In this document: positions 5,529 through 26,418 of the stretch, one piece after another
How the letters are laid out: each line of letters starts with the position of its first letter
How positions within the stretch are numbered: position 1 is the stretch's first letter
Origin: Thuidium tamariscinum
Taxonomy: Eukaryota > Streptophyta > Bryopsida > Hypnales > Thuidiaceae
Length of the DNA stretch: 64,000 nucleotides
NCBI GenBank assembly: GCA_947034885.2
Contig: OX344750.2
Coordinates: 9,024,553 to 9,088,552, forward strand
Reading direction: 5' to 3'
The notes under the pieces: generated by a model
Told to the model about the DNA's origin: nothing
Database searches by the model: none
What the model saw: only the letters and a program-made list of their open reading frames with translations
Translations under genes and position numbers: made by a program

Positions 5529-8500
5529 GAATATTTTGGCTAATTTTTGCTATTTAATCGCAAAAAATGGACCCAGAGTCCTGAGTGCCATCTCGAGGGC
5601 TCACAATCCCTTGAAGACCAAATACTTCAAAGCCTTGAGATTCTCAAATGATGCATGCTCCACCCGCAACTTCTTGCAACCTTCAAAGCCAAACCATCGC
5701 AAATATGACATGTTGGCAATGGCTAGCGGAATCTCTTCCAATAGTTCACATCCCTTGAAATCCAATGTAGTAAGTGACGTCAAGGATGCAAGCACCGAAT
5801 CCACAATCTTCAATTGCTTGCAATCATTCAAGTACAGTTCTTTGAGCGATACCACATTCTCCAATCCTCGAGGCAAGGCTTCCAGCACTTCACATCCCTC
5901 AAAGCCTTGAGATTCTCAAATGATGCATGTCCCACCCGCAACTTCTTGCAACCTTCAAAGCCAAGCCATCGCAAACATGACATGTTGGCAATAGCTAGCG
6001 GAATCTCTTCCAATAGTTCACATCCCTTGAAATTCAATTGAGTAAGTGATGTCAAAGACGCAAGCGTGGAATTGATACTCTTCAATTGCTTGCAGTCATT
6101 CAAGTACAGCTCTTCGAGCGATACCACATTCTCCAATCCTTGGGGTAAGGCTTCTAGCACCTCACATCCCTTAAAGCGCAAATTCTTCAAAGCCTTGAGA
6201 TTCTCAAATGATGCATGCCCCACCGGCAACTTCTTGCATCCTTCAAAGCCAAGCCACCGCAAACATGACATGTTGGCAATGGCTAGCGGAATCTCTTCCA
6301 ATAGTTCACATCCCTCGAAATTTAATGTAGTAAGTGTTGTCAAGGATGCAAGCTCGGAATTCACAATTTTCAGTTGCTTGCAATCAATAAAGTCAAGCTT
6401 TTCTAAAGATGGCAATTGATCCAATCCATGGGGGATATTTTTCAATGCCTTACATCCTTTGAAACTTAGCAACTTAAGAGCTTTGAGATTTTTGAATGTT
6501 ACATGAACTTGGGCCAAGTTTTTGCATCTTGGGATGAACAATGATTTCAATGATGTCATGTTTTGAAAACCCTCTAATATGTTTATAAGGTTGTCACAAT
6601 CTTTTAAGCACAATGTCTTCAATGGAATGTGTTCAATTGTTGTATTCGGAAAAATCTTCAACGATGGAAAATTTTGGAGTTCTAATACTGTAAGTTGTCG
6701 AAGTTCTTGGAGTAAGAAGAGGTCTATGAGTTGATTGGTGCAATATAAAGAGATATCTCCACAATCATTATCATTTGTTTTATATGTAATTCAAAGGAAT
6801 TTGAGTTGATGAGTTTTCTTAATCAACTTTGCAACATTGCTCAAATCATTGAATACTTCAATATATAGAAGTAACAATTCTGAGAATTCACCGTTTGCAA
6901 TTGTAGTCAAATCTATTTCTTTGTTCACACCTGTAATGCAAATGCCTCGAGCATTTTGAAACTCCTGAATCACAAAGTTTCATTGTTAAATGGTTACAAG
7001 TTGATGGGCTTTAATGAAATTGACAAGGACATTGATTATCATAAAAACCAAAATTTTCTCAACAAACATGACTACTTTGAGATTTAGAACTAAATCAAGA
7101 TATTTGTAATAAATGAATCATTCAAAACCTTTTTCTATTAAATAAAACATACCTCTTTTGTCAATGTTTCTAGTGAATTGAAAGGTTGCTTCCACTTTCT
7201 TCGACTTCCAAATCCTTGTCCTTGAGATTCTACGTCCCATATCACGTATTGAATCATGCATCTTTATATATCCATTGTCATTGATTTTGATGAGTGACTT
7301 TTCACTTAGGCTTGCAATTATTGTTTTAGTGTTTTCATTCAAATAGTCAACTATTGTGTCTTCTTGAATGTCTTCAAACCATACATCTTTACAAAAGAAA
7401 CACGATATGTCTAAAAACCCATCTTGCTCTTCATTGCTCAGCATATCAAAACTAATCTCCAATCTTCTCCCCACATCCTCATAGGCATCATATTCTCCTC
7501 TCTTCAATCTTTGTAAAGCTCACTCCCATACACGAAGGCGCGTTTGTCCATTTAAACAAGAGCCCATAACTTCTAAGCTTAATGGATGGCCACCACAAGT
7601 GTTAACAATCTCCTTGTTGAATTGTTTCATATGTGGTATCATTGCACTACCATTCTTGAAAGCATATTTCAAGAATATTTCTTCAGATTGGTCACAATTC
7701 AGCCTTGGAACTTCAAATTTGCTATCTTCATTGATTAAGCCTTTCAAGATTTTCCAATCACGGCTGGTAACAATCAATTTGCTACCCTCTATATTGAACA
7801 TTTTTGCTTCCAAAAACACATCCAATTGATGTTCTTCAGTGACATCATCTAAGATGAAGAAGACTTTTTTTTGTTGGAGCACCAATTCCAATATGAGTTT
7901 ACCCTCAACGAGATCTTCTGCTTCTTCTTTTTGTCCCAATTCCTTCAAGATCCAATTCATTTCCATCAAATAATCACTTTTTAGATCACACATGATTGTA
8001 GTCCACTTAGATGAGTCATTAAATAACAATGCCTTCTTCAAGCAATCCTTCAAAGCCTTCACCAATGTTGTTTTTCCAATGCCACTCATTCCAACAACAC
8101 CAACCATAGATTTATTCTGGAGAAACTTTTCTAAGGTCTTGATTTTGAAATCAAGACCATGACATTCCGGAAGTATTGATGCATCAATGATCCCCTGTAC
8201 ACATAACAAGTCACCACAAATCAACAAATTGAGAAATTACAACAATTAACAAAGATTGATGATCTCATTCAAATAACTTCAAAATCAAAAACCAATGATG
8301 CTTCTAAAAGGGGCTTGAATCTATGATGGTAAAAACATATTAAGCTCAAAACATTCTTGAAATAGATTCTTACCTTAGTACGTTCGTCATTCATTTTCGG
8401 AACATCTAATCTCTTTACGTGTTGAAGGATGAATATCCATAAAAAATTCACAATCAATTTCCATACATATGACCACCATTGTCTAATCGTTCCAATAGAA

Positions 8501-8878
8501 GATGAAAGTTGTGTAAATGGATTCAAATGTGAATATGTTTGATCTTCTTTCTTGTTAATACATTGAGTCTTGAAAGCCTTCATCTTTATCTCCATCAAAC
8601 TTGTATATATCTTTTCAAAAGATGGTCTTCCATTTGGATCCACAGACAAACAATCTTCAATTAAAGATTGAAATTCTTGACACAGTGGAATCTTCATTAA
8701 GGCAAATTTTTTTTGCCTTTTTGCAATTTCAAAAGGACTAGATCTAAATTCTAAAGTCTTTAAAGTGCTTTCCAATCAATATGTCACAACAAATTAATCC
8801 AAAACTAAACACATCAATTTTCAATGGATCCAACTTTACATTGGACTTCGCTACTTCAGGAGCTATATATCCAGGAGT
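5529..8878 (-). pseudogene. Protein kinase-NB-ARC-LRR resistance gene relic, 5' truncated
   Basis: Reading leftward: kinase C-lobe (8878-8374) with TPGYIAPE and DVFSFG; intron 8373-8195 (GT..AG, phase 0); NB-ARC (8194-7153) with P-loop GMSGIGKTT, kinase-2 FFILDDV, RNBS-B GSKLIVTSRDW, GLPL-type GGHPLSLE and MHD as KMHDSIRDMG; intron 7152-6965; then LRRs with repeats of about 24 residues (LxxLxxLxFxGCxxLEEIP). Such cytoplasmic proteins normally sense pathogens and switch on nucleotide exchange. Damage is extensive: kinase frameshift near 8770; TGA after Trp-Glu near 7517 where WERAL is expected; one extra A before the second intron; TGA at 6793-6791; a 16-nt deletion near 5910 seen by comparison with the preceding repeat; and an extra T near 5600. 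The kinase N-lobe (glycine loop, HRD, DFG) is missing: the gene stops at the TIR of the large element. Kinase-NB-ARC-LRR fusion is the strongest hint of a bryophyte. Confidence 0.88.
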
Positions 8879-8936
8879 CAACGACGCTAGCGTTCGAGCA
8901 TGGAGCGGTGAGCCTATGAGCTGCAAGCGGGAAAGT
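8879..8936 (+). repeat. Left terminal inverted repeat of the 16-kb element
   Basis: Starts with CAACGACGCTAGC and shares GTGAGCCTATGAGCT and AGCGGGAA with the inverted right end, in the same order and similar spacing. It begins directly after the last intact kinase codon of the flanking pseudogene. Confidence 0.72.
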
Positions 8937-9051
8937 TGTGAACGGTGAGCATGAAGTAGCCTTTTTTTTAGGAATTTCGACTATAATTTTTTTTCAATCA
9001 GTTTTTTTTCCAAAAGTCAACAAAAAATTACTATATATAGTAAATTTTGCT

Positions 9052-9085
9052 ACCTATGACCGTGTCTCGTATAACCGTGGATTTT
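9052..9085 (-). repeat. Left subterminal repeats
   Basis: ACCTATGACCGTG (9052-9064) and CCGTGGATTTT (about 9074-9084) match, in inverted orientation, the motif ACCTATGATCGTGGATTTT read from the right end. Subterminal arrays like this commonly serve as transposase-binding sites. Confidence 0.5.
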
Positions 9086-10907
9086 CATGAAATCTCATAT
9101 TTTTTAACCATTAATAATAGCCTGTATACAAAAAAGTTTAGGGATTTAGGATTTAGGGCTCAATAAAAAAAAGGCCAAACTCTTCAAATACAAAAGGCTC
9201 ATGTGCCTTCTTTCAGGGTTTAGGACTTTTTGTGAGTGGATAAAATAAAAATGGGCAACTTTAAAAACGAGATAGAAAAAAAAAGTTAGAATAATATATA
9301 TATTGCAAAGAAAGTCAATGTTTGGAATTGGATACCATCACTTCTTCATTTCATTTCTAGCGCATGGAGAAGAATACAATATGAATGTACAACACTCCAA
9401 AAACCTAATCATGTCTACTTTGAAATAACGATGATCCCTGCTCGAACTTGGAGTAGCTTCAACTCATTAAAGCTATAACTAGGTGCATGAATGAATTTGT
9501 CATCATGAATATCCATCTTGCAGAAGTACCTATACAAATAATACAAGTGCTTACAATTCACGTATTGTGCTCGGCCTCCCACAGCAGATACTATCATATT
9601 GACAAAGTCAGGGCATGTGCATGTAGGGAATGTACCCATAGTAACTCGATATACGTTTTTGTTGGACTCCACTCTAGTTTGTAGCACCACTATTGCACCA
9701 AGTCTAGGAAGGGGTACGAGGGTCAGTCCTAGAATTTTCCCTTTGATATTTGAAGCACTTTCCTATTTGTTGCGTTGCTCTACGGTTGGAGGATTTGCAA
9801 GTCTTTTGATTGTTCGGTTGTTCCTCACTGTAGGGTGCACATCTGCATTTGGTGGACATGGTTGGGTGAAGAAGATAGGCTCAAAAATCTTAGACATGGC
9901 AAAAAGTTCACGTGGCGATAATGTAGGACGTTCTTGAAGATGGAAGCCTGCATGCTGTAACAGTAAGGTTTCTTCACGATTCAAATTGGTCCCCGTTAGA
10001 ATAGGCCAAATTTCAGGCAGCTCTGGCCTATCAATGACCCACTTCCTCTTTGTACCTTTCACACATCGTTCAATGTCATCCCAACAAAACCAAAAATCCA
10101 CAACCACCGGGCGCTTAGTTCCATACTCTTCTTTCCTACCACGATAAGTAGGAGCAGGGGTTCCTTTTCCACCCTTGGCAATCCTTGAGGTACACTTGCT
10201 GTTTGATGTCTGTTGTTGAGCCCAGCATCTTGCATTTGATTTGTGGCTGATCCTTGCAATGTGCCACTTGGATGTGTCACAATCGGTTTCACATGCTACC
10301 GTCACATAATTGGAGGTATTGACTTCATTGCGATTTCCAATGCCTTCCATTGAATGTTCTACAACCTGGGTAGACCTATTTCGGACCCGCGGTTGCGAAA
10401 AGTTGATTTTGTCTGGTCTATATGAATCTCCAGCATCACCGATAGGTACATCAAGCCTCCTCTTTGTGCTCTCAAAAATTTCTTCTCCTTCTAGATGAGG
10501 TACTCGAGTTCCTACACCATGTGCTTCTGGCAATGTATTCAATGCCTCAGCAATTTTTTTTGGACACCCACTGCGCCTAGCGGCCCTCAACCTCAATTCT
10601 CCCTTTGATGGTCCTGATCCACATGCATGTCCTCTAAGGTATGCTCGGTAGTTTGTCATTTGCATCCAAGCTCGTATACTGTCATCACAAGTGGCGTCGA
10701 ATAAATTGTTTCCTTTTTTCCCCGACATTTGTAGCCACTTGTTATGGATCGTTTCCAATAGATTACAAAAAGGCATGTCTGTCATCTCTTCTAAAGTAAG
10801 ACCCTACAATTCCAACCACAGGCAGGCATGAATCAAAATACAATTCACTCTTATTATACAAATTAAATCTCAAATTACTCTCTATACTTCTAAGAATTTT
10901 AGTATGG

Positions 10908-10928
10908 TTTAGGGTTTAGGGTTTAGGG
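10908..10928 (+). repeat. Interstitial telomere-type repeat (TTTAGGG)3
   Basis: Three exact TTTAGGG units lie in the transposase intron. Looser relatives (GTTTAGGGATTTAGGATTTAGG) occur near 9136. It may be a telo-box-like regulatory element or a scar of DNA repair. Confidence 0.85.
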
Positions 10929-11093
10929 AAGTACAATCACAAAGAAGAAACAAATAGTATTATGGGTTTGCAGAATGCAAATATCTCACTTGAGAAAAAA
11001 AATTGGAAACATAGTAACAACAACTAGTACTTCAATGGCAACCAATTTTGAACCTCCTAACATTATATTTTTCTAAAATTAACTAGGGTTGGA

Positions 11094-11117
11094 AATCCGT
11101 CGGATCCGACAGATTTT
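11094..11117. repeat. GTCGGATCCGAC palindrome, copy 1
   Basis: AAATC-C-GTCGGATCCGAC-A-GATTT: a 24-bp palindrome with one mismatched pair, in the transposase intron. It belongs to a set of six inside the element. Confidence 0.85.
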
Positions 11118-13634
11118 ATATATAATATCACTTTATAGTACAGTAAAAATACTAAATGATTGAAACTTCAAGCAATTACCATTTCCATGAATGCCTTATT
11201 GTAAGATTTATAAAAAATATACTTATAGCCGTTGCATGCAATAAGTGCCTCATTGACTCTCTACCCTACTTCCTTTAATAAATCTTTCAAATTTCTACTA
11301 TAAATTATCTTTAAAAAAATTTGAAATGATTTGTATTTAAATTTTTAATTACAAAGACATTAAAAGTTAAAAGAATCATCTCTTCTATATAATTGAAGTA
11401 AACAATTGTCTTATTAAATAAAAATACAAAATATAATTTTGAAACCAAAATAAGATCCACATACCATTGTCATGAAGCCTCCCCACTGTAAATAACGAAA
11501 ATGCCAAAATGCCAACCAATGCTCCAGGTGATGAAGTGAGTCTTCCGTTATAGCTCCAGATGATAACCACCATGACCGAATTGCAAGATAGTGCACCTCC
11601 ACTTCATCCAAAGTCTTGGATTCTTTGTATTGCTTACATAGTGCAATGTGTTGATGTTGTAATCCTTGCTTGATGTGGTTCCTGGATGTGCTTCTGAAGA
11701 GAATTACTCCAATGTAGTAGGCATGTTCTCTCACGATTCTTCATAATGTCATCTGCTGAACCACTACCATAGACAATGCGAACTGCATTCCAATTGGCCA
11801 TTGCACTATCTGCCATAAATCCTTTAAAATTTGGCTCAGCCACTCTGTGTTTCTCCATTATAGCATTCAGTGACCTCCAGAACTGTACTTGAATCTCTGT
11901 ATCTTCTGATTGCATATCGCACACTGCAATGGTCATGACCTTCTTGTACTGAGAGTCGTACACGGGGCATGCCATGGTGGTCCAGTCCTTCACGCGCTTC
12001 ACGTGGTCGAACATCATGCACGCATTCTATAGATCACCGTTAGGTTGCATGCGCCTTACCAAGTCCATTTCACTTCCAGGCCCTTCAGTGAGCATTTTGA
12101 AGATGTAAACCTTCTCTTTGCCTTGGCCTCGGAAGACACTATCGTGTATGAACTCAAATTTTGATTCCTTCTTCATAGTCATAATGTTGTCAATGACCCC
12201 TCCTTGGTTGTTTGAGCGGAATGAGGAGATAATATTCTGAATACTAGGACTACTTAAAAATTGGAAGCGATCCATGACCTCTTCCATTTCATCTCCTTTC
12301 AATATCTTCTTCTCTCCTTCTTTGTGGTGAAAAAGGTGGTTCGTAAGGAAATCTTTGCTAGCGGATAAAGCTATGGCAGAGTTTGTAGCTGAAGGGGTTT
12401 TGGCAACTTGTTCTGCTATGAGTTCGGTAATTTCTTTTGCAGAATCTCTATACATGCCTTTTGCTACTAGGTGAGAGTGGTTTCCTAGATGAATAGCAGC
12501 CCTAGTCATGTTTGGATTATCACTGTAGTAGTAGTAAATTCTAGCATCACAAGTGCTGAGGCATGTAGGTATTGATTTGCAGACTTTACAAACTAGTATG
12601 CAATCTTTTGGTGGAACGACTCCTACTGCAAAAGGAAGTATTGTAGAACCCATCCATTCTGTTTCATTTTTCCTAGAAGTCCTAGACAAGTACTCGCAGC
12701 TAGGATTTTCACAAATAAGATGGCCAACGCAAGAAGACTTACGGAACTTCAAATTGTCCGAGTTGTGAATGTTTGTTGTCACTAGCTTGCACCACCCATG
12801 TCCGTCGTACCGCTTGTTCGTTCCCTCCAAGTTCTTTGCTGCAGATGAAGAAGAAGAGGCATGGCGTGGCGGTAGTTCAAAGATAGCATCTCCGTTGTAA
12901 GTTGGTGGTAGAAACTCCACTTGGTGGTGCTTCACGATGTTCATATTTTATGCTGACAGTTCATTTCTTAAACGGTGAAGACTAGAAAGTTCCTTCAAGT
13001 ATTTCATTATACTTGATATACTAGGTAGACTAGATTGACAAACTTGTTGTGAGAATATACGTTGTTCAGAAGTGCTAGTGGAGGTGTTTTGTACAGAGTA
13101 CATAAGGTTGGTGTCATTGGATTCTTTCTTTACCAAGGAAGGTTCCATGTCAAGAGTCAAAGAAGGGGATTGGCCTTCTGACTCACTAGAGAGTTCTACA
13201 ATAGTCCCAAACAACTCTACCTTTGTTTCAGCAGACAATTCATTTCGTGCCAATATAGGGAAGCATCCTATAGGGGTAGTAGGATTAGTATTCTCATGTC
13301 CAGAAGGTCTGTTCATTGTAGAATTATCAGACTGGCCACTTGCTATCTCAATGGACGAAGCTAATATAGATAAAGGGAGACCATAAGCCCTATAGTTCCC
13401 TAGACCTAGATACCAACAATGCCCTTCATCAGATAGACATTTTGGAAGCGGGATTGATTGAAGTAATTCACCAAATTTAGAATGGTGCTCTTCTTCAATA
13501 TAGATAGATGACTCTACAAACTTGAAGCGAACATGGAGCAAGTGGCTCAATATAGTAGCATGACCTTCTAGGTCTAAAGGAATGACTAACGGAACCTGAT
13601 GACCATCTACACGAATACTTGCCATGCTACTCAC

Positions 13635-14443
13635 TATCCAATGTAAGATAGAAATAGAGTGAAAATGAATTTACACCCTAAAACCCGGAACCATGTATGG
13701 GTTTATATAGGATTCTCAAGGGTGCACTGATGTGGTAAATGATGGCGGCAAGGATTTTAGGTTTTCAGAGCTAAAATTTCAGTTGACGGCGTTTAGGGTA
13801 ACATGGCTATAAAGCAAAGCAATTATTTCAGAAGTGACCGCCACATTAGAATTAGTGAATATGATGTATGTGGTACAGTCCTATATTATCATTATTGTGG
13901 TGTAGTTAGTTGTAGCGCCTATAATTCTCCATGTACTAATTAGGTTCTTTATTATAGAATTACCTTCTACCTATAGTAGTTTCTAATATTAGATACTCTG
14001 TCATAGGATCTCTACTGTATAGCATGATAATTAGCCTAACGGTTTCTTTGAAACGGTTCTAGAAGATTGCAATGAATGAAGAAATCAGTACTTCTATTGA
14101 CATTGGCGGCGCTGTCTCATCAAATTGCCTTGGGCACTGCCAATTTTCAAATATGTAAAACTGCCGGCGCCGAAATATTGAAGTCATATGACACGCATGA
14201 AGGGCAAAGGCTGCGGGACGCAGAGATGTATATAGGGACCGCCTCCGAGAGATGGATTTAGTGTATTGTCATTCTTCGAGTGCATCTTTTAGTTTCGTAT
14301 GTAGTGGGTTTTGCTCCTTCTTCTATGTATTCATGCTTACAGAACATTCTATTTCACTTTCTATTGTTTCAAAGCAGAATAGAAGTCGTAGGAAACATAG
14401 ATCTTTTCTCTATTCTTCTCGGAAAGCTTTAAGGAAAGCCAAG
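13635..14443. promoter_or_regulatory. Divergent promoter region between the two element gene units
   Basis: A minus-strand TATA box (CTATATAA, plus 13703-13710) lies 80 bp upstream of the transposase ATG at 13625. A plus-strand TATA box (TATATA, 14229-14234) lies about 210 bp upstream of the plus-strand ATG at 14444. The facing arrangement over some 500 bp suggests one shared control region. Confidence 0.6.
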
Positions 14444-16099
14444 ATGACTCGCGCAAAGAAGACTATGTCAAAGAGAGGACGTGGTGGATCAAGTGAGTCT
14501 CAGAGGTCTCATTATACTCAGAGATCTGGAGGTGACCAATTCATGAGTGGTGAAGGCTAGAACGAAGATCCTGTGCAGGAGTACCCAAAGGAAACGCAAG
14601 CCGAGAACGAGGACACGGAGTCGCAAGAAACTTCTAATGTAAGTCTCTTGAATCCATCTGTGAGGTCAATTTCATTCCTTAGAGTTTGAGTTGTTAATAC
14701 AAAATCTATTCAATGCATAGCACATCACTGAAGGCCAACGAAGTGGTCATTGAGAATTTAGTGAGGTAGAGATATTCAACGAGATGCAATAATAGAAACT
14801 AGATAGTGAAGAGCCACTATGGCTGGATGTCCTTTGCTAGGTTTTAGGGTTGGATTGCACATTGTTTCAGTGCCATCTTTGTGAGAAAATCAGGGATATT
14901 TCGTACAAGGAAAAATGGAGAGCAATAGGAATTTAAAATTGTTATTCTTCCAAGGTAGAAGTTGTGAGTGATGCTTTGGTTTCAAGAGAAGTTGAGATAC
15001 TTCGAGATTTTTTACTAAACAAGATCCCATTGTATAGTAAAGTACTTGATTGATTATTGTTTTCTCTAAATTGAGATATTTCACTATCAACACATGGAAA
15101 AGAGTTGTACTTGTCTACGTTTGTAGTTCTAAAGGAAGTTAGAAGCGACGAACCTTTCAAAAAGCTAATACGAATGCACAAAAACAAAAAATACTGTCAT
15201 TATCAATGATTTTTAACCCGGTTCCAGGATCTTCGCGTGTCAGTCTTCACATTCTGGTCATAGTTAGATTAGGTGAAGCTGTAAGTGCTGTTCAAATGAA
15301 AAATAAAACATGAAGAGTGAAACTTGGAACATTTATCAATCAGACTTTAGCAAAATCCTACAAATTCAGAGAAAATGAGCCAAAGTTTGTCTAATTATTT
15401 TATGCTTTGAAGTCGTTCTCCTAGAATTTAGAAATCATTCATCTCACTTGAGATTATTTCTTTGGTTGATCCACCCTCATTGTAGCACTTCAAGATTGAA
15501 ACCAAAATGAGTACTGCTCTATTTTGAGAATCTGGGTAGGGCTCTTATCACACCTGCTTGCAACCGCGCGTCACCAGCACACCTGTCTAGAATCTCGAAG
15601 GTCACTAAAGCGTCAAATACGATAGGTGCCTGACTGCACTAGCTTGTGCCACCATTTGAGCTGCCTAGATTCTTAAAGGTCAACAAAATTGCGGAAAACC
15701 GTAGATGCAGGCAGTTGGCAACTTGCTCGGGGCTACCTGCCCAAATCACTTTTCTGCCTTCATGGCGCTAATCCATGATTACCGATGAGAATTCAGAAAC
15801 GGCGCGCCTTGCACATTTAGTGTACCACTGTGAAACCTGTGGTGCCAATCCGAATGACCGACTTGAAACTCAAACCGCACTATTCATTTTCTCATCTTGC
15901 CTTCGTGAAGCCAACCTTGTGCATTGAGGAGAGTGCAACAAATACCGTTCTGTTGTATCTTTTGAAGTGGGCAAGATTTTGGTGCAGATGGCGAGGATGA
16001 CGCGGAGTAGGGCGAAAGCTCCAGAGGATCCTGACAACACAGAGGCGCAACTTGAGGTACAAAATGCTATGCTGAATTCATGTTTGATTGCAGTAAACA

Positions 16100-16450
16100 A
16101 CTTGAGATTTGGGCCTTGCGGTGGCGCGCGACAGGTCCCCGGACTGATGCTCCCACATGGACGCGCACTGCGCATTATGCTTTGGTTGGGGACGCGCCAC
16201 GCTCGCCACTGGCACTGCATCCAAATCGCGGAGGTTCAACAAGTTTTGAGTCCGCCACGAGGGCTGCAGTCGCGCGCGCCACCTCGCGGGGGCTGCACCA
16301 CACGCGCCACAGTGGCAACACGGTAGCAAATGCGCCGCAGCTTTAGAGTGGCACGACGGTAGCGGACGCGCGCCATGCGCGTGATTGTGAACTATTTCTA
16401 GCTGGCCACCTTCACACAAAGTCATGCCACGCTTTGGGTCGCGCCACGCG
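16100..16450. repeat. GC-rich tract of repeated CGCGCCAC-like words
   Basis: Within the long intron, the words GCGCCAC and CGCGCCACG recur many times in both strands over about 350 bp, sharply GC-richer than its flanks. No convincing open frame accompanies it. Confidence 0.5.
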
Positions 16451-16480
16451 CGACGGACGGGCCCACTGAAATCAGGTAGT

Positions 16481-16928
16481 TGAGAAAAATTTGAGCTCCG
16501 TGGGTACCACGAGGCTCAGCCACTAGAGCAAAACATGGTCTACAAAAACCGTAGTCATTTTTGACTACGGTTCTTTTTGCCACGTTTTTGTGCATGCGAG
16601 CGTAGTGGAGTTTTGCGGGTTTTTGCAATTTCCCACTGAATTTTTTGGAATTTGGGGGCGTGTAATATGTTATTGGAAAGGTATTCAAATTACCTTTCCA
16701 ATAACATATTACAAGCCCCCAAATTCCAAAAAATTCAGTGGGAAATTGCAAAAAACCGCAAAAATCCACTACGCGCGCATGCACAAAAACGTGGCAAAAA
16801 GAACCGTAGTAAAAAATGACTACGGTTTTTTCAGACCATGTTTCGTTATAGTGAGCGCAAAACCAAGTTGGACCCGACTTGGTTTTTCTCTAGGCCTCGT
16901 GGTATTCACGGAGCTCAAATTTTTTTAA
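16481..16928. repeat. Foldback element with nested hairpins
   Basis: The outer arms read TTTGAGCTCCGTGGGTACCACGAGG (left, from about 16490, variants on the right to about 16921). A near-perfect inner foldback spans about 16547-16832 with arms near 140 bp meeting around 16688. The right half also contains AAAACCAAGTTGGACCCGAC, a degenerate copy of the GTCGGATCCGAC palindrome (16859-16886). RNA from it would form a long hairpin. Confidence 0.85.
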
Positions 16929-17428
16929 GTCGTTCACCATGTTCAAAATACCAAGACCGTGTCAGTTGTCCTATTCCATTTTCGGTGAGAATCCACAGTC
17001 ATGGAATCCTAAAAAAGTCTCAAACATCTTCTACGTGAGGGCTTTAGTGTGGAGGATATGAATTAGCTGCCAGTCCAAGTGCAGGTCCAAAACTACCATT
17101 CTGTGATTTCAAATTGTATCGAAAGTGAGAAGCTGATTTTAGTGACTTTGAAGAAATGAGTGAGCCTCATGGGTACCACAAGGCTCACTTTTTTTCTGAA
17201 TCTAAGCATAATGCTCGAGGTCTGCAAGGAGCAAGTCAATTAGAAAGTTCGGATTCAGTTTCAATGTGGAGTTTCGAACACAAACATACTTTCTGAAGCA
17301 GCTCGTGGGGAATGATGCCACGCTTTGGCTGTTGTGTACCTCCGTGATCAAACATTAGCTTTGTGATTATCTAGAGAGGCTAATTTCTCGTTTCATTGCA
17401 AGTACTTGTGAAAATGAGGATTTGTCGT

Positions 17429-17500
17429 GGGTACCACGAGGCACGACGCAAAACCAAGTCGGATCCGACTTGGTTTTACGCTGTGCCTTGTGGCACCCAT
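17429..17500. repeat. Hairpin with perfect 28-bp core palindrome (GTCGGATCCGAC copy 3)
   Basis: The core AAAACCAAGTCGGA plus its complement (17450-17477) is a perfect 28-bp palindrome. Outer arms (TGGGTACCACGAGGCACG / TGTGCCTTGTGGCACCCA) extend the stem to about 36 bp with few mismatches. The left arm starts GGGTACC, as in the neighbouring foldbacks. Confidence 0.9.
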
Positions 17501-17880
17501 GGCACTGACTCTTTTTTTTTTTTTCTTGGAAATTCGTTGTGTTCAATACCTTCATGTTGGACCTCTTCTTGAGTCTTCGTTTACTTCCAGCTTGAAAGAA
17601 TCTTGGTTGAAACTTCAGTTCACTCAAAGTGTGGCCTCAGTGAACTCTCATAGCCAAACCAGGGTCCCCGAGATCCTCAGACGTTGACTCTTTGAGTCCC
17701 TCCGATTTTTCATCTGAAACTCTCAGTACTCGAATTTGAGTCTCTGTGTATCCGAGTAATTCGGCTTTATTTCACATGTGCCCCTGAAAGTATGAAATTT
17801 CAGTGTAAGACAATGAATTTCCTTGGTTGTGGTCTATTATTTTTGGAATTTGTCGATATTTACAGGAAAACATTGATAAG

Positions 17881-17953
17881 TTTGGGTACTACAAGGTGCT
17901 TGGAAAAATTAAGTCGGATCCAACTTGAGTTTCTCATTCACCTTGTAGTACCC
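17881..17953. repeat. Hairpin with core AAGTCGGATCCAACTT (copy 4)
   Basis: Arms GGGTACTACAAGGTG (17884 onward) and CACCTTGTAGTACCC (to 17953) are exact inverted repeats around the core at 17911-17926, which has one substitution in the palindrome. It is a diverged relative of the 17429-17500 hairpin. Confidence 0.85.
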
Positions 17954-18958
17954 AATTATTCTCATCTTTATTGAATTTTTTTATTTGATACTATTCTTGT
18001 ACTCACATTGTTATCTCTTTTTTCAGCCCACTGCTAAAGCTAGAAGCGTTGGAAAGGACAATGATGAATTGAAGCAACAGATTGAATCTCTATCATTGTG
18101 GATAATTATCTTCAAGTAGTGTCTTTATTTGCTAATGATTAACATAAACTGATCCTAAAGACATGATTTAAATGATCAGGAAAATTTATTTTGAATTGAA
18201 ATTAATATTGAGCATTTGGATTAAGGCTTTGTTTCAATTACTTAGAATCATGACTTTGCTATTGAATTTTAAGTTGAAACCTTTGTTTTCCAGGGCGGCC
18301 AAGGACGAGGCAAGCGCCAGAAGGTTTTATTTATAGAGGAAGAGAGTTCTATGAAGCAGACTATCCCTGATATGGACGTTGGTGGACCATCCAAGCCTCA
18401 AAAGTAGCCACAGCCAGGGGTTTCCATTTCACTTGATCAAAGTGATGCAAACCAAAATTTGGTGAGTTTTAAAGACGTCATGAATGCTGCGGAATATGCC
18501 GTTGACGCATTTGAAACGACTGTACTTAGTGGGACTAGGGGCGATGGCTCATGGTTCTCATCTTTTAGCTCTGAGGAGGAGTATCCCTCTGATTTAGAGC
18601 TCTCAAACTTTAGCAGTGTAGAGTTCTTCGATTTGTATACAGGGGAAAGTGTGGTGAACTTGGACTTGTTTCAATCCAATGAAATCATCATCCTCAGCTC
18701 TGAATTTGATGAGGATGATGAAGTTCAAATCATAGACTAGGTGGAGTTTTATTCTCAAAAACACCATATACCAGGCCGGGCTTTATCTTTATTCAAGCTA
18801 CTTTATTTTTGTAGATGTAATTGACCATCCAATTGCAAGTACTATTTTCCACTTCAAGTAAACTATTTTGTTTGTTGTTCCATTTTTTTCATTGCAATTC
18901 ATATTGTTCTTGTTTTCAATGAACATTCCATTTATTAAACTTGGAATTGTTCTTCTAG

Positions 18959-21900
18959 ATGGACATCTCCCCAGCCAAAACCATGGAAGTAGAAATAATA
19001 TTTGAAACGCCATCCTCACAAAACCAGAGACAACCAGAGATTGAAGGAGAAGGAGAAGGAGAGGATAGAGAGGAAGACATGGAGATTGTTATTCAAGACC
19101 GTGAGGAGGAGAAGGTGATGTCAGAGGAAGAACTCCGGCATATTCAAAAAGGTGATGTTGTGAAGCTTTTGGGACAACTTCGGATGAAGCCCGAAGAGGT
19201 ATTTCGAATGCATATACCATTGTACAGACTTATGGCAATGCCAATGGTCAAACCTGCATTGGCATCTGACATCGCAAAGCTTGAACAAGAGTTTGTAGCT
19301 GGAGGGTATCAAGATGGAGCTGTGGTATTCTATGTGTCAGCTACAAACGAAGATGGAAACACTGAAGAGTTCATGCAACAGGAGATGGACAGTTGGGACC
19401 CCATTTGGAAGGAGAAGAATGAAGTCTTCAAACAGAAGTTTGAGTCAAAGCCAGAGCTTCAATTCTTGAAGAACTTGAAGCTCTTCATTTGCGATGGGAA
19501 CCACAGACGAGTTGCTTGGATGAATTACATTTCCAAGCACTCAAAGGAGCACTACAGTGTCGACTCTATCATGTTGGATACGAAAGGGCAGAATGAACTT
19601 GTCATGCAAGTCATGCACGACGTAAACAAGTAAGTTCTTTCTTTCATATTGTTTTTATTTTTCAAAAAAATATTCAATTTGAATGTTGTACTTTCTTGGA
19701 GGTAGTTTAGATCTTCGGCTTATATTGCATTGAATGTCTTTCAGGTCTGTAGAAGACTCCCACTTGAAGATGAACTTGGTACACACCTTGTACCAAATTC
19801 AGAAGTACAGAATGCTACCCATTGCAAAGTTTGCAGCTTTATTGAGGCCTGCAGAGAGGAAGAGGTGCCTTGAGCACAAGGTGACCAAAAAATGGTATTC
19901 AATACAACCCGAGGTCTTCACATCCTTCATCTTCCGAGTAAGCTCTTTCAACTTGTTTTTGATAAATATATTTTTGTTTTAGATAATCATCAATGCTCAT
20001 ATTAACTTCAATTCTATCTAGGTTTCTTGTGCAGCAAGAAATTTCACAAGCTGCAGATGCGGCAGTAAGAAGGTACATGGAGGCCACACAAGAGGCTAAC
20101 AGTATACCACTAGAGGCAGCCGAAGCAATGAGGTTGGGAGCAAGGAAACGAACAAAGGCGGCCATGGTGAAGATGTTCAAATTGCTAGCAGTGGCCAACT
20201 CAGCAAACGGAGTGGACTTCCTTAAAGAGGTACAATTCAATAATTAGTCTCCAACTTCACTTAAATTGTTCAAAGGACAATTCAAATCCATATTGAAAAA
20301 CTAACTGAAATCTTTTTGTAGGTGGAAAAGCATTGGGGCAATTACGAGGTGCCTGAAATGACTTTGGAGAAGCTCTAGTTGGTCGCCACCTGCAAGATGA
20401 CTGCAAAGCACAAGACAAAGATACTTCAATGGTGGAGCTCTTCCATTCTTTCACGCGAATCAAGGAAGTTGCCACCTAAACCGGTCTCCGAAAATCTACT
20501 TCCTCAATTTCTGGTGAAGTGTACTTGGTACGCTGGGGTAAGTGTTCAATATCTTTTCAAGAGTGCTTTTGATATTAGGGGAATTCTAGATCCTCTATGA
20601 TGCCTTTAAAATGGCATCAGTTGGGGTCCTTCATTGAATTTGAAGGTGTACTTGTCAAAGATCCACCCTAATATTTTCCCGTAATTTTCATGTATTTTGA
20701 CACTGCGATTTTTCTGAAGGTACATGATTTTAATTATATAATTGGACTTTAGGTACTACTTGTCATTTGAATTATAGTACCATAATGGGTTTTTCTTGCT
20801 AGCGACAAACAATAAGCAATTAAGTAGTAATGGTTCATGAGTTTCTCAACTTATTAGTGAGAATTTATTTTCTTAAATATTATAGGTACTTTATATTCTA
20901 GAAGTTTGCTCAATCTAATTCCTTTCATTGAATAATAAATCACTTGGTAGTTGTTTTCAATAAAATATTTGGTACTACAAGTGAACTTTTTGACTGTATC
21001 CCATATTTTAGATAGAAGATGCTGTAGTGGAGTTCTTCGACAAAATTGTAAAGGAAGACAACCTTTCCATCGACTACAACACAAAACCAGAACCAAAGCG
21101 ACTATAAGAGTACGTAGAAGGATGGAGGCAGAAGATTTCGGAACATGGCTTCATGAATTACTTCAAGGGCCAGAAGTACTTCAAGAAGGGCCAAACTTTT
21201 TCATCTCACAAAGGCTCTAACGCTGTGGTGCGTAGAGTCCTTTATCGGTATGTCATTTTCTGTACTACTTGGAATTTTGTATCATCATTGTATACTTTGT
21301 AATTATAGAAAATCTATAGCATCTTCTACTTCATTATAAATCTTGAATTTGTATTATCTTGGCTATTTTTCCACCCTTCAATGGATTGTAATTTACAACT
21401 TCCATGTTATATTTTTCTCATACTCTTTCATTTTGAGATTGAACAGTGCTCCATATAACTCATTATGATTGAATTACAGGTACTTCAAGTTAGAGCTTGA
21501 AGCAAAGGGGGCCATTGCAAAACTGGACCTCCCTCAATTCCTTCCACGCTTCCTTGACCGCAACTCGCCTTCATGCATGTTCAGCCCACATCAATTGCGC
21601 ACCTACACTACTGCTCATCTCTCTGGCGCGGGTTGGTACTTTGACTGCACACTGGAGTTCACTCATAATTCGGAGGTTGAGCTCAGGGCATCATTGGAGG
21701 GCAAGGGGATAGTAGATTTGGAGGCTGTTGACGAGTTCATCGGCATGGACAATGATGCTAGAAGGAGGGCCATCAACAAGAGGGGTGCAGTGGACCGAAA
21801 GAAAGAAGTGAAGAATCAACTCATCGTGGAGGCCAAGGAGAAAAAGCAGGCGGAGAAATCAGCAAAGAAGGCGGAGAAAGAGGCCGAGAAGGTGGAGAAA

Positions 21901-24023
21901 GAAGCCGAGAAAGAAAAGGAAGAGAAGACTAAGGCCAAAGGAAAGAAAAAAGAGGAAGAGAAAGGGCAAGTCTTAGCTTCCTCCACTGTGGATCAAACAC
22001 AAGGCGGAGTACCAAGGAAAGTCACCATCTCATAGCTCACTGAAGATGTCATTTCACGAGTCACACAAGCCATGGTCCTCTCCGACGATGATGTGCCAAA
22101 GACTGAGGATTTAATCCTTAATATTTGCATTGAGGACATCGCCATGGATATGGAGGACAAAAGACAGGGGGTCTACAACGAGGTCTTGAAGTACTTGGTT
22201 AAGGTGATCTCTTCAAACATCTTTGCTAAAATTTATTTTACTTATTGTCAATGATATGAATGCTATGTACCAAAGTTTCTATAATGAAACATTGAAGACA
22301 AATTTCTATATGGTCCACAATTACATTTTTTATTTAAGAATTTTTGTATTTGAAAAAATTAATAAGACAACAAGGCAGAATTTATAATTCCGTCGGATCC
22401 GACGGAATCACATAAACCGCTATTTTGTTCTGTATTTCCCTACTCAACATTACCCACATTCATATGGTTTTGTTTTCTCTAGAAATAGTTGAACATATTG
22501 ACATTTGAATGTAATTTCTTTTTCAGCTCAACCTTTTATTAAAATGACTCTAAAATTCCTAATGTTGTACTAAATATTATGAATTTGCTTTGAAAGGTAG
22601 AAAAGTGTGCAATACTAATATATTGAAATTCTATTGAAATATGATTTTGCAGATGGCAGTAAGCAAAGCTCGCATGTTTGAAGGTGCAGCAAATGCAAGG
22701 GCTAGTGTTGATGTCATCTTTATTGACTGTCCAGAGAACTTGTCTATGCCAGGTATTTCTCTTACGTTGAAGGAGGTGCCAAATTGGAATGCGGATTTAG
22801 AAGCTAATGCTTTGCAATCCGCATGCACCTTTGCAGTAGAGCATCTGCACGATGATGGATGCATCATTGTGTTTCACTCCTTCAGCATTGCATCCAGAGA
22901 AGATCTAGCAGGAGTTTGCGAAGCATTTGACTTCAAGAAGAAGAAAGATTGGTTAGGCATGAACCGCATGCATCTCACCTCGCCAATGGACACCACAAAG
23001 ACGGTAATTTCAGTACAGATGCTTAAGTTTTTGTCACCTATTTTCTTTTTAAATTTTATTTATTGATCTCTAATGTTCTTGTGTCATATATGTTACAGAC
23101 ACAGAAGTTTGGAGTCACTCTCCTTGTCAAGGACCTCAAATCAAAAGGTGAATCCAAATTTTCTTTCAAGCGTACTGAGATGATGAAGAAGGCTGGGGTG
23201 GATGTCGAGAATGATGACATGCTGATGAATTACATGCATACAGACGACATCTCCATGAATGGGAAGAAGCCACAGAGAGGCCCACGCGAAAAAGATCCGA
23301 GGTTCTTCACCCTCCTCCTTGAAGCCACAAGCAATGAAGGCGATGTCATTGTGGACTACATGGCATCCACAGGTTTGTCTTCAATTTTAATATTTCATAC
23401 TTCTATGTCATTGTAACAATTTTGTCATCTCTCTAACGCATTTTCATTACATGAATGCCCTAGGTGCTTGCATTTTGGCTTGTAGAGGAACTGGACGCAA
23501 CATTCTAGCTTTTAAGGGGGACAAAGATGTTTTCAATGCCATTTTGAAGCCCATGAAGAAGTCATCAACATCAATGGCAGTGGCTCCAACCCCCGAGACA
23601 ACAGTGGACTTGACAATGGATGTGCAAGACGCGCCTATTGTGCCTTGCAAGTTCGTTTGCAAGGGAAAATCCAGTAAGTAAGTGGAAACTTCTTTCATTC
23701 TTTATTATTTTTCTTCATATCACATTTGCAAAGACTAATATAATGTCTTCAATTTTTGCAGAGGTTGTGGATTGATCTTGAGAGAGGTCATGGAACAAAA
23801 TCAAAGGCTTGCCGTTAGTCCAGAGAAGCCTTTCGAGCTACCACCCTATGCTGAACAGATGGCAAGTGCCTTTGCAAATTTTGGTTGTTCCAAATCAAAA
23901 CAACGCAAAGACACTTACGCCCTCAATGTCTTACAGTTTATAGATGCTTCTGCATCTGAGGGACGGGAGTCCTCAGAGTCCTCTACAGGGTCAGATTCAG
24001 TGACTAAGTCCACAACCACTTAG
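18959..24023 (+). pseudogene. ParB-like / coiled-coil / beta-class DNA-methyltransferase-like protein (three in-frame stops)
   Basis: Ten exons: 18959-19629, 19745-19937, 20035-20229, 20322-20537, 21012-21247, 21480-22203, 22653-23003, 23099-23372, 23464-23677, 23762-24023. All junctions are GT..AG and phases match, giving 1,112 codons including the stop. An acidic N-terminus (20-60) leads into a ParB-like domain with LKLFICDGNHRRVAWM (DGNHRR at 179-184). Helical exons follow; a Lys/Glu coiled coil spans about 608-665. Residues about 746-985 match N6/N4 DNA methylases in beta-class order: motif IV position VDVIFIDCPENL (770-773 DCPE instead of DPPY), then PRFFTLLLEATSNEGD and VDYMASTG (canonical DPFMGSGT), then GTGRNILAFKGDKDVF. 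The catalytic and AdoMet-loop residues are atypical, so activity is doubtful. Stops: TAG 20376-20378, TAA 21105-21107, TAG 22033-22035, all compatible with Gln. It could be a recently silenced gene, or a family with other roles such as DNA binding. Confidence 0.82.
22387..22408. repeat. GTCGGATCCGAC palindrome, copy 5 (perfect 22 bp)
   Basis: ATTCCGTCGGATCCGACGGAAT minus its two end bases is an exact palindrome; the full site spans 22387-22408. It sits in the intron between the coiled-coil and methyltransferase-like exons. Confidence 0.9.
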
Positions 24024-24583
24024 ATTCTTGAGATTGACTAATCTCTTGAATCTTACTATTGTGTATTGGATTTTATTTGGATTGGATTTGTGTGTTTTAT
24101 GGCTACTTCTAGAAGTCTCAGATTTCTCTTTCTATTTATTTGATTTTTGTTTTGAAAACATCTAAGGCAATGGCTCTTGCTAGTTCTCCCAAAACCTACA
24201 CCAAAAATAAATAAATAAATAAATTTTGAGGCAAGAAGGCAACACGTACAACTCTGTCGGATCCGACAAACCCTTACATATTGTCTCCCAATTCTTTCTT
24301 TTCATTATACATCTCAAAATCAATCTTCTTTCAACAACACCTAGATTGACTTATTTAGTGAATGAGTTGCATCAAATTAGAGTATTTCCAATGCCTTTTG
24401 TAATTTCAAGGTTTGGGTATTTATGAGATGTTCTTTGTTGTTTTCATTTTGCCTTCACATTCCTTAATTTATCTCTATATAAAAAAGATTTTATATTCTA
24501 AATTAAAGCTAATTCATAATACAAACCTAAGTGCTTTGATTCTCGCAATTAGACTTTATATCCCTACTCTTGTGTATACAATG
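24024..24583. other. 3' flank of the ParB/methylase gene inside the element
   Basis: AT-rich, with (AAAT/AATA)n near 24206 and the palindrome at 24255. Nothing else is supported. Probable 3' UTR and terminal region of the element. Confidence 0.4.
24255..24268. repeat. GTCGGATCCGAC palindrome, copy 6
   Basis: TGTCGGATCCGACA is a perfect 14-bp palindrome about 230 bp after the stop of the ParB/methylase gene and 590 bp from the right element end. Confidence 0.9.
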
Positions 24584-24756
24584 TCCATGATCATAGGTGT
24601 ATGCAAAGAGAAAATGAAGAAGAAAACAAAAAGTGACTTCTGTAGTCACATCTTTGAAATAGACATCATATCTTCTTCGTCGCCTAAACGTTTAAAGTCC
24701 ATGATCATAGGTACTAAACTCTAATTTTTGTTACCCTAAAATCCACGATCATAGGT
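24584..24756 (+). repeat. Three right subterminal direct repeats with central GATC
   Basis: TCCATGATCATAGGT occurs at 24584-24598 and 24698-24712, and TCCACGATCATAGGT at 24742-24756. Each holds a GATC. They lie within 270 bp of the right end and mirror the left subterminal motif. Likely binding sites for an element-encoded protein (inference). Confidence 0.65.
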
Positions 24757-24785
24757 GGTCAACTCAAATTTTTTTCAAAATAAAC

Positions 24786-24849
24786 TTCCCGCTCACAAGC
24801 TCATAGGCTCACAAGCTCCTGCTCCCCTGCTCGCCTGCTAGCAACCCTG
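24786..24849 (-). repeat. Right terminal inverted repeat of the 16-kb element
   Basis: On the minus strand it starts CAGGGTTGCTAGC. It contains two copies of a GCTCACAAGCTC-like unit around GCTCATAGG, so the TIR has an internal short tandem arrangement that the left TIR lacks in part. Confidence 0.72.
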
Positions 24850-25695: not shown

Positions 25696-26418
25696 AAAGG
25701 ACCAAACTGCATTTTTTGGCAACAAAGCAATTTTGGGGAGCTCACAACGTATGGAGTTTTGTTTTTTTTAATTTCAAATTTCACACAATGTGTGCCTAAG
25801 GAGTAGCTTTAAGACCCAACAATTTTCATAACTTTTGAGTACATGGTTAAAAAGTTATTGTATGATATGTCATTTTCATTTTATGGCAGGTAGTTTGGGC
25901 AGCCCAAAAAACTTCTTTAAAAAATACTTTTTAAAAAATTTGAAATTTGAAATTGATTCTTTACATTTATATACACATGTTAAGCTTTGAATCATTCCAT
26001 TTGGATTAATTAAGTGAAAGTTATGACGAATTTTAGTTTGCGGATAGGTATATAGTCCTTGAAATCCATACCTACCCACAAACTAAAATTCCTCATAACT
26101 TTCACTTAATTAATCCAAATGGAATGATTCAAAGCTTAACATGTGTATATAAATGTAAAGAATCAATTTCAAATTTCAAATTTCTTAAAAAGTCTTTTTT
26201 AAAGAAGTTTTTTGGGCTGCCCAAACTACCTGCCATAAAATGAAAATGACATATCATGCAATAACTTTTTAACCATATACTCAAAATGTATGAAAATTGT
26301 TGGGTCTTAAAGCTACTCCTGAAGCACACAATTTGTGAAAATTTTAAAGAAAAAAAATTCCATGTGTAGTGAGCTACCCAAAATTGCTATATTGTCAAAA
26401 AACACAGTTTGGTCCTTT
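25696..26418. mobile_element. Foldback element, about 360-bp arms
   Basis: The left arm begins AAAGGACCAAACTG (25696) and the right arm ends CAGTTTGGTCCTTT (26418). The arms match over nearly their full length (for example TAGTTTGGGCAGCCC / GGGCTGCCCAAACTA) and meet around 26057 with a loop under 20 bp. No gene inside. A diverged single arm lies at about 63390-63720. Confidence 0.9.

Follow-up and report, generated by a model that had tools for sequence, protein, structure and literature searches.

A large transposon of Thuidium tamariscinum carries a methylase-like gene with a replaced catalytic motif and a repeated palindrome

A 64-kb stretch of the Thuidium tamariscinum genome (contig OX344750.2, positions 9,024,553 to 9,088,552 of the forward strand; hereafter the window) contains a copy of a large terminal inverted repeat (TIR) transposon, and a ten-exon gene, which encodes a protein with a methylase-like C-terminal half and an N-terminal half that is ParB-like by motif, is an integral accessory gene of this element family. 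The gene is open in other copies and under purifying selection, the catalytic motif of its methylase-like half is replaced in every copy read, and the elements carry an array of a 12-bp palindrome, GTCGGATCCGAC. We propose, with a probability of roughly 0.4, that the protein recognizes its own element at these palindromes and, as a putative S-adenosylmethionine (SAM)- and DNA-binding pseudo-methylase or an enzyme of altered chemistry, marks or organizes the element DNA.

Throughout the text positions are those of the window. The genome searched was the 363-Mb assembly of 19 contigs to which the window belongs. Ten related copies were fetched from it, picked from a match list with preference for copies with few stops; nine of these can be aligned along the entire ten-exon gene and the tenth, C4:16.6M, is homologous in its last 3.3 kb only.

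The ten-exon gene is part of a transposon

A sequence-only reading of this DNA had joined ten exons at 18959–24023 into a ParB-like and DNA-methylase-like fusion carried as transposon cargo. The exons hold, with GT-AG sites and phases that fit on joining, and the product contains the features then named: DGNHRR (19493–19510), a Lys/Glu-rich stretch and methylase motifs IV (22725–22739) and then I (23354–23372, continuing into exon 9). What that reading overlooked is that the window copy, with a joined frame of 1111 codons, has three in-frame stops (Table 1). None of them was found in the nine copies aligned along the whole gene and they therefore reflect decay of the window copy; an alternative genetic code with TAG and TAA read as glutamine was set aside by inference on the same grounds. 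The gene region has 207 window-specific changes, 99 of them C>T or G>A, as would be expected from the decay of methylated cytosines. The window copy is a dead, decayed one, and the gene is open at other loci: the 1112-codon frame is wholly open in two of the ten fetched copies (C2:43.2M and C11:5.67M, whose transposase genes carry at least one stop each), and in the other eight the ten-exon gene is broken by stops, frameshifts, insertions or the loss of segments. Seven of the ten retain every one of the 18 splice dinucleotides, with one lost in C1:48.0M and two in C4:10.1M. Because two copies are fully open and diverged copies show purifying selection, the gene is not a chance assembly of reading frames.

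The claim of transposon cargo is borne out by conserved element ends, by target duplications in other copies and by tight linkage to a transposase-like gene. Homology between copies stops sharply at 8879 and 24849, and the ends form an imperfect TIR, in which a 42-nt core can be aligned and an extension by eye reaches both ends (CAACGACGCTAGCG... and CAGGGTTGCTAGCAGG...). Target duplications of 9–11 bp flank seven of the eight fetched copies with both ends, six exactly and one with one mismatch; the eighth, C6:11.9M, is truncated at its right end. The ParB-like exon has at least 150 genomic matches in several subfamilies, many without a stop; the 150 listed are the best of 617 candidates and range from 100% down to 56% identity, and the 150 listed matches to the transposase C-terminus are the best of 882 candidates. 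An opposite-strand transposase match lies within 25 kb upstream of 106 of the 150 listed ParB-like-exon matches, at 8.2–10 kb in 79 of the 106, whereas the other arrangements are rare (none upstream on the same strand, one downstream on the same strand and five downstream on the opposite strand) and 200 random placements gave a mean of 2.1 and a maximum of 6. The figure of 106 is probably an underestimate, since both lists hold the best 150 of longer lists. The family includes near-identical copies, which are therefore probably young. Contig C11 (17.5 Mb, 4.8% of the genome) holds 51 of the 150 listed ParB-like-exon matches (binomial P 2e-29, with matches taken as independent), a pattern like that of a sex chromosome or some other element-rich chromosome.

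Selection on the protein was estimated from ratios of nonsynonymous to synonymous substitution (dN/dS). Five diverged pairs that exclude the window copy gave 0.12–0.24 for the whole protein, 0.04–0.09 for residues 80–290 and 0.12–0.27 for the methylase part, with looser values in the coil (up to 0.51) and the C-terminal tail (up to 0.62). The sole near-identical pair gave 0.45, and three pairs that include the decayed window copy gave 0.24–0.29. The N-terminal part, ParB-like by motif, is the most constrained region of the protein; judged from these ratios the protein, including its non-canonical motif IV, has been retained in the copies that spread.

A methylase-like half without its catalytic motif

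Several comparisons point to a methylase relation of the C-terminal half. PHROG families of DNA methylases match down to E 3.7e-6, the best of them matched by four of five members, and Pfam N6_N4_Mtase (PF01555) scores 20.6 bits against a cut-off of 26.7 (E 4.7e-4), with four of five members matching at E <= 1. A profile of the plant sequences finds PDB 5hfj/5hek, an adenine methylase named DpnA, at a whole-sequence E of 2e-4 with both halves colinear, each stretch by itself being weak (E 0.33 and 9.5). Single-sequence searches agree with this relation, and a tblastn search of phage sequences with a limit of E 10 matched 416 records (best E 2e-3); among the 20 listed, those with annotation name a methylase under the match. 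The order of motifs, IV and then I, is colinear with known members of the beta class. These results support a divergent beta-class amino-methyltransferase fold in the C-terminal half. An exon-by-exon search of the host genome with PF01555 gave no match at E <= 0.001.

The catalytic motif of this predicted fold is replaced. In an alignment with two phage methylases, at 22–25% identity, motif IV reads DCPEN against DPPYN in the phage proteins and motif I reads DCTASTG against DPFMGSG or DCFMGSG, with its glycines altered. We read motif IV in 34 copies, 30 of them close (the window and aligned copies included) and four divergent. The close copies have DCPEN (26), DCPKN (2), DCLEN (1) or DCTEN (1), and the divergent ones DCPEN (L053), YCPEN (L054), DCLEN (L055) and DCQEN (L057); L053–L055 are three 7-kb loci of a subfamily at 55–60%, for which sequence reaches ~1.3 kb upstream of exon 1. 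A motif of the form (D/S/N)PP(Y/W/F) occurs in none of the 34 copies, and DPPY in none. The acidic residue of the SAM site is retained in 28 of the 30 close copies and is Lys in two, the window among them. Thus the earlier label of DNA methylase stands as a relation of fold and family—by PHROG, PDB, a Pfam score below cut-off and colinearity—and is not supported as a claim of activity, which the replacement of DPPY in all 34 copies makes doubtful.

In the N-terminal half, FICDGNHRR is invariant in eight close aligned copies and appears as CNENHRR and CDENHRR in two divergent copies. It resembles the G-x-x-R motif of ParB-type proteins, hence ParB-like, an unproven label throughout this text.

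The palindrome array and its possible function

The sequence GTCGGATCCGAC is the only 12-bp palindrome repeated inside an element. Nine full elements contain 42 of these sites, three to six each; the 48 kb of the window outside the element has none, and 13.9 kb of flanking sequence lacks even the 10-bp core of the palindrome. The genome contains the 12-bp sequence 655 times and its reversed control once; the control is likewise palindromic and matched in composition but has no CpG. At the centre of the 12-mer is GGATCC, which includes GATC, a sequence that related adenine methylases are known to target. The 50 sites listed all fall on C1, no farther along than 34.7 Mb; for 41 of them a listed element match is at most 16 kb away, where random placement gave a mean of 0.6 and a maximum of 4. 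Ten ParB-like genes were examined: two lie beyond the listed sites, and the other eight, from several subfamilies and in the part of C1 that the list covers, all have a cluster of sites 0.96–2.7 kb upstream of exon 1, with one further site 7.2–8.8 kb upstream in six of the eight. The stretches examined of L053–L055 contain no exact core; L054 has a core with one mismatch in a near-palindrome upstream of exon 1.

Many of the sites upstream of the gene are centres of larger palindromes. When up to two mismatches are allowed, the sequences examined contain 68 core sites, of which 31 have an outer box, GGGTAC(C/T)ACGAGG, and 37 have none; the 31 boxed sites represent 25 distinct palindromes of ~70 bp, 21 from the window and the fetched copies and four from two divergent copies. 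The core is conserved at 0.92–1.0 per base and the outer box is conserved, and between them lies a 16-bp spacer that is variable (commonest base down to 0.34), yet its two arms pair at 327 of 400 positions, compared with a mean of 224 and a maximum of 258 in 2000 shuffles. The distance from box to core is exactly 16 in all 85 matched arms, although 14–24 bp was allowed, and the reversed control gave 0. Long arms are missing at the solitary sites (transposase intron, intron 6 and 3' of the gene), where the core alone is kept.

On the reading that we prefer, the protein would recognize the palindromes via its N-terminal part and/or its methylase fold. It would act there as a SAM- and DNA-binding pseudo-methylase, or as a methylase with altered chemistry; we hold this view because DPPY is replaced in all 34 copies while the fold stays under selection. 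Loaded on the array, it might mark or organize the element DNA for expression or transposition, or shield it against silencing. A more specific version, which we regard as rather doubtful, is that the transposon encodes a partition-like or marking-like self-recognition system in which the ParB-like/pseudo-methylase protein and dispersed cognate palindromes would serve to find, pair, mark or shield the element's own copies. Plasmid ParB/KorB proteins are of the ParB type and have several dispersed palindromic sites on their own replicon; the parallel is one of working only, and the tests described below gave no ParB homology for the plant protein.

A number of points weigh against recognition of the palindromes by the ten-exon protein. 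No result links the palindromes to this protein over the transposase or the small third gene of the element, palindromic arms can persist through arm-to-arm conversion without function, and methylation is unlikely without DPPY. Of the 50 C1 sites listed, nine lie away from any listed element match, both lists being parts of longer ones, and five of the nine show the same spacing as an adjacent element cluster. The conservation of core and box is partly by construction, as the sites were chosen by them, and some of the 25 palindromes come from near-identical copies. Non-coding 12-mers conserved as well as the solitary sites number 279 of 2717 for the site at 24256, 1842 of 2717 for that at 22392 and 111 of 1204 for that at 11099; conservation is thus modest for two solitary sites and absent for one, and it is not used as main evidence. 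Several copies used for dN/dS bear stops themselves, which would have raised the ratio rather than lowered it.

The ParB-like label bears on the same question, and the ParB domain of the sequence-only reading was not confirmed beyond its motif: every profile, hhalign and hidden Markov model (HMM) test of ParBc (PF02195)/ParB-Srx was negative. Searches of Pfam, PHROGs (with the alignment and with the exon-1 part), NCBIfam (exon-1 part) and PDB sequences gave no ParB match; hhalign against eight phage ParB domains gave a probability below 1%, with shuffled and reversed controls scoring higher; and under an HMM of phage ParB domains with 2000 shuffles, the best plant sequence ranked 559 among mostly shuffled sequences. 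A phage tblastn search with the N-terminal part gave no match, and the only matches across these searches were weak ones to unrelated or unknown families (e.g., RNA_pol_Rpc4 0.011, an arsenate reductase model 0.017, monellin 0.27). A single-sequence AlphaFold2 model of window exon 1 alone, with a mean confidence (pLDDT) of 41, is too poor for use. The plant alignment is shallow (effective number of sequences, Neff, 1.3), so that these failures are no proof of absence. As to the bacterial, phage or large-virus source that had been suggested for the gene, scans of viral contigs and one prokaryotic genome contig scan found no relative at tblastn E <= 1e-3, and pattern matches only.

It is possible, if on the whole doubtful, that the palindromes are internal binding sites of the transposase and that the ParB-like/methylase-like protein does something else, e.g., binds chromatin or blocks methylation by the host. 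Sites of this internal kind are found in large plant transposons; here one site lies in the intron of the transposase gene, and transposase and sites occur together in all nine full elements. However, the densest cluster is upstream of the methylase-like gene and the core was not found in the 75 terminal bases of each end.

Somewhat less probable, and in our view unlikely, is that the large palindromes form hairpins, as RNA or DNA, that are unrelated to the protein and persist through gene conversion between the arms or because splicing or small-RNA production needs them. This would account for arms that vary yet remain self-complementary, for the strong RNA folding of the two large window palindromes (z -9.6 and -9.0) and for the location of sites in introns or in stretches without a recognized exon. 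It sits poorly with solitary sites that retain the 12-bp core without long arms, with the lack of the outer box in 37 of the 68 core-like sites and with the fixed box-to-core spacing of 16 in 85 of 85 matched arms.

We consider it improbable that the protein is catalytically active as an N6-adenine or N4-cytosine DNA methylase and marks its own palindromes at GATC or GGATCC, as has been proposed for the algal proteins discussed below. Its kinship with adenine methylases, the GGATCC in the middle of the site, the acidic SAM residue in 28 of 30 close copies and the algal precedent, as far as PMC12477816 describes it, speak for such an enzyme; the loss of DPPY in 34 of 34 copies and the changed glycines of motif I speak against it, as does the mismatch to the motifs given for active classes in the part of PMC8885841 available to us.

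Finally, the purifying selection would also be explained if the gene belonged to the host, or were a domesticated copy, and lay in a transposon-rich region by chance. For this element family such a reading is excluded, as is a host gene without any link to TIRs, by the copy number (at least 150 matches), the constant transposase layout in 106 of the 150 listed, the shared ends and the target duplications, and eight of ten fetched copies are broken in the gene.

Element layout, flanks and known relatives

The features of the window copy are collected in Table 1. The transposase-like gene has a long 5' part that holds a DDE-like core and then C-x2-H, and a single intron near 10.8–11.5 kb; in the window it is broken by stops at 12948–12950 and 12027–12029 and a frame change near 11.7 kb. 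The D...C-x2-H pattern was assigned by eye and the Pfam SWIM match of the C-terminus is below cut-off (E 0.06–0.12). Mutator-like elements (MULEs) are defined by TIRs and 8–11-bp target duplications, and here we find TIR-like ends and duplications of 9–11 bp in seven of the eight two-ended copies, so the element looks Mutator-like; the Pfam MULE domain has no match in the transposase-like protein at E <= 1, and it is therefore not filed as a MULE.

The last exon of the small accessory gene has 70–81% identity to the window in nine of the ten fetched copies and is found in divergent copies too. The encoded protein starts with a basic MTRAKKT and ends in an acidic tail of EIIILSSDEDED type (seen in the window and in copies C7:28.4M and C1:48.0M), which we take to resemble a SUMO-interacting motif; in C1:48.0M, weak matches (E 0.03–3.3) hint at repeated short exons of MTRSR type.

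The two ends of the window copy lack a matching target duplication. A kinase-like fragment, named by eye (TPGYIAPEVAKSNVKLDPLKIDVFSFG on the minus strand, 8699–8878), adjoins the left end, and no continuation of it was seen in the right flank; together these suggest that the window copy or its surroundings may be rearranged. Near the fragment, also on the minus strand, lie a repeat-rich leucine-rich region and an NB-ARC-like open reading frame (by eye; 5619–6450 and 7520–8236), which suggest a disease-resistance-type gene beside the insertion. On the other side, at 25762–26357, there is a large foldback element with 290-nt arms at 94%, which has a relative at 75–78% near 63.4 kb. The foldback insert within large palindrome 1 has 163-nt arms at 94%.

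Table 1. Features of the transposon copy in the window
Feature	Coordinates	Strand	Basis
Whole transposon copy, ~16.0 kb	8879..24849		Ends match limits of homology in other genomic copies
Left TIR, begins CAACGACGCTAGCG	8879..8945	+	42-nt aligned core 8896-8937; inner limit by eye
Transposase-like gene, opposite strand to ten-exon gene	9418..13626	-	DDE-like core, C-x2-H, C-terminal SWIM-like zinc finger
Solitary GTCGGATCCGAC in transposase intron	11099..11110		Palindrome search, conservation test
Small accessory gene, several small exons, starts MTRAKKT..., last exon ends EIIILSSEFDEDDEVQIID	14443..18739	+	Boundaries approximate, middle exons uncertain
Large palindrome 1, core decayed, interrupted by 333-bp foldback insert (16521-16853)	16485..16924		Palindrome search
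Large palindrome 2, centre GTCGGATCCGAC at 17458-17469	17426..17495		Palindrome search, RNA folding
Large palindrome 3, decayed core GTCGGATCCAAC	17882..17955		Palindrome search, RNA folding
Exon 1, motif FICDGNHRR ending at 19510	18959..19629	+	Joined frame, copy alignment
Exon 2	19745..19937	+	Joined frame
Exon 3	20035..20229	+	Joined frame
Exon 4, TAG at 20376-20378 (codon 372) in window copy	20322..20537	+	Joined frame, copy comparison
Exon 5, TAA at 21105-21107 (codon 457) in window copy	21012..21247	+	Joined frame, copy comparison
Exon 6, Lys/Glu-rich coiled-coil-like stretch, TAG at 22033-22035 (codon 689) in window copy	21480..22203	+	Joined frame, copy comparison
Solitary GTCGGATCCGAC in intron 6 of ten-exon gene	22392..22403		Palindrome search, conservation test
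Exon 7, methylase-like motif IV region, DCPEN at 22725-22739	22653..23003	+	Joined frame, alignment
Exon 8, start of methylase-like motif I, DYMASTG in window, DCTASTG in most relatives	23099..23372	+	Joined frame, alignment
Exon 9, remainder of motif I and putative SAM acidic residue, AFKGD in window, AFEGD in most relatives	23464..23677	+	Joined frame, alignment
Exon 10 and stop	23762..24023	+	Joined frame
Solitary GTCGGATCCGAC directly 3' of ten-exon gene	24256..24267		Palindrome search, conservation test
Right TIR, inward reading CAGGGTTGCTAGCAGGCGAGC	24783..24849	-	42-nt aligned core 24783-24824; inner limit by eye

Among the methylases themselves, PDB 5hfj (named DpnA) and CcrM share with the plant protein the order of motif IV before I and a colinear match along both halves; the phage members of the beta class that we compared have DPPY, whereas the plant protein has DCPEN and DCTASTG. 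The ParB-methylase fusions of Streptococcus phage Javan117 and Lactobacillus phage T280 share its domain order, a ParB-like N-terminus followed by a beta-class methylase, but differ in having DPPY and a glycine-rich motif I, a ParB domain found by tblastn with a ParB consensus, and 388–392 residues, and they belong to no eukaryotic transposon. A fusion of a ParB domain with an adenine methylase from Bacillus cereus is reported, in the part of PMC5512222 available, as a nicking enzyme. In bdelloid rotifers N4CMT, a host gene with a chromodomain and an intact SPPY, marks transposons for silencing, and the motifs named for active amino-methylase classes are SPPY, DPPY, NPPY, DPPY/F and DPPW (PMC8885841, as excerpted). 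N4CMT and the plant protein are both of the bacterial amino-methylase type, in a eukaryote and in a transposon context; on the same account, the plant gene differs in belonging to the transposon and in having lost the catalytic motif.

The closest parallel is Sola1-1_Ec32 of Ectocarpus, which encodes an accessory protein of 1104 residues with ParB-like and N4C/N6A-methylase parts and for which green and red algal relatives are cited; methylase-type accessory genes of giant transposons are a puzzle in several algal lineages, and their role is a proposal, self-methylation having been put forward as a mark (PMC12477816, as far as its available text goes). By that description, both are large DNA transposons with an accessory gene opposite to the transposase that encodes ~1100 residues (1104 vs 1112) with methylase-like and ParB-like parts, the latter by motif in the plant protein. 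They differ in that the present element has a plant host, is Mutator-like with 9–11-bp target duplications rather than a Sola element, has a replaced catalytic motif and carries a palindrome array. The likeness to the algal proteins is one of size and layout as described, and the available text of PMC12477816 is silent on palindromes or motif IV. Like the algal proteins, the plant protein is encoded by a transposon together with a transposase, and its methylase domain is of the N4C/N6A type by relation of fold and family, with an altered catalytic motif. We have not seen catalytic motif loss or a palindrome array described in the related literature, as far as it was available, and no search aimed at the palindrome itself was made. 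ParB-like/methylase transposon proteins are thus, by the available accounts, a described kind from brown, green and red algae, here met in another host group and element type. To this kind the T. tamariscinum family adds a many-copy plant example with selection on the protein and concrete candidate target sites; a catalytic motif that is changed in every copy read argues against plain self-methylation, and the candidate sites turn a vague proposal into a direct test of binding and methylation.

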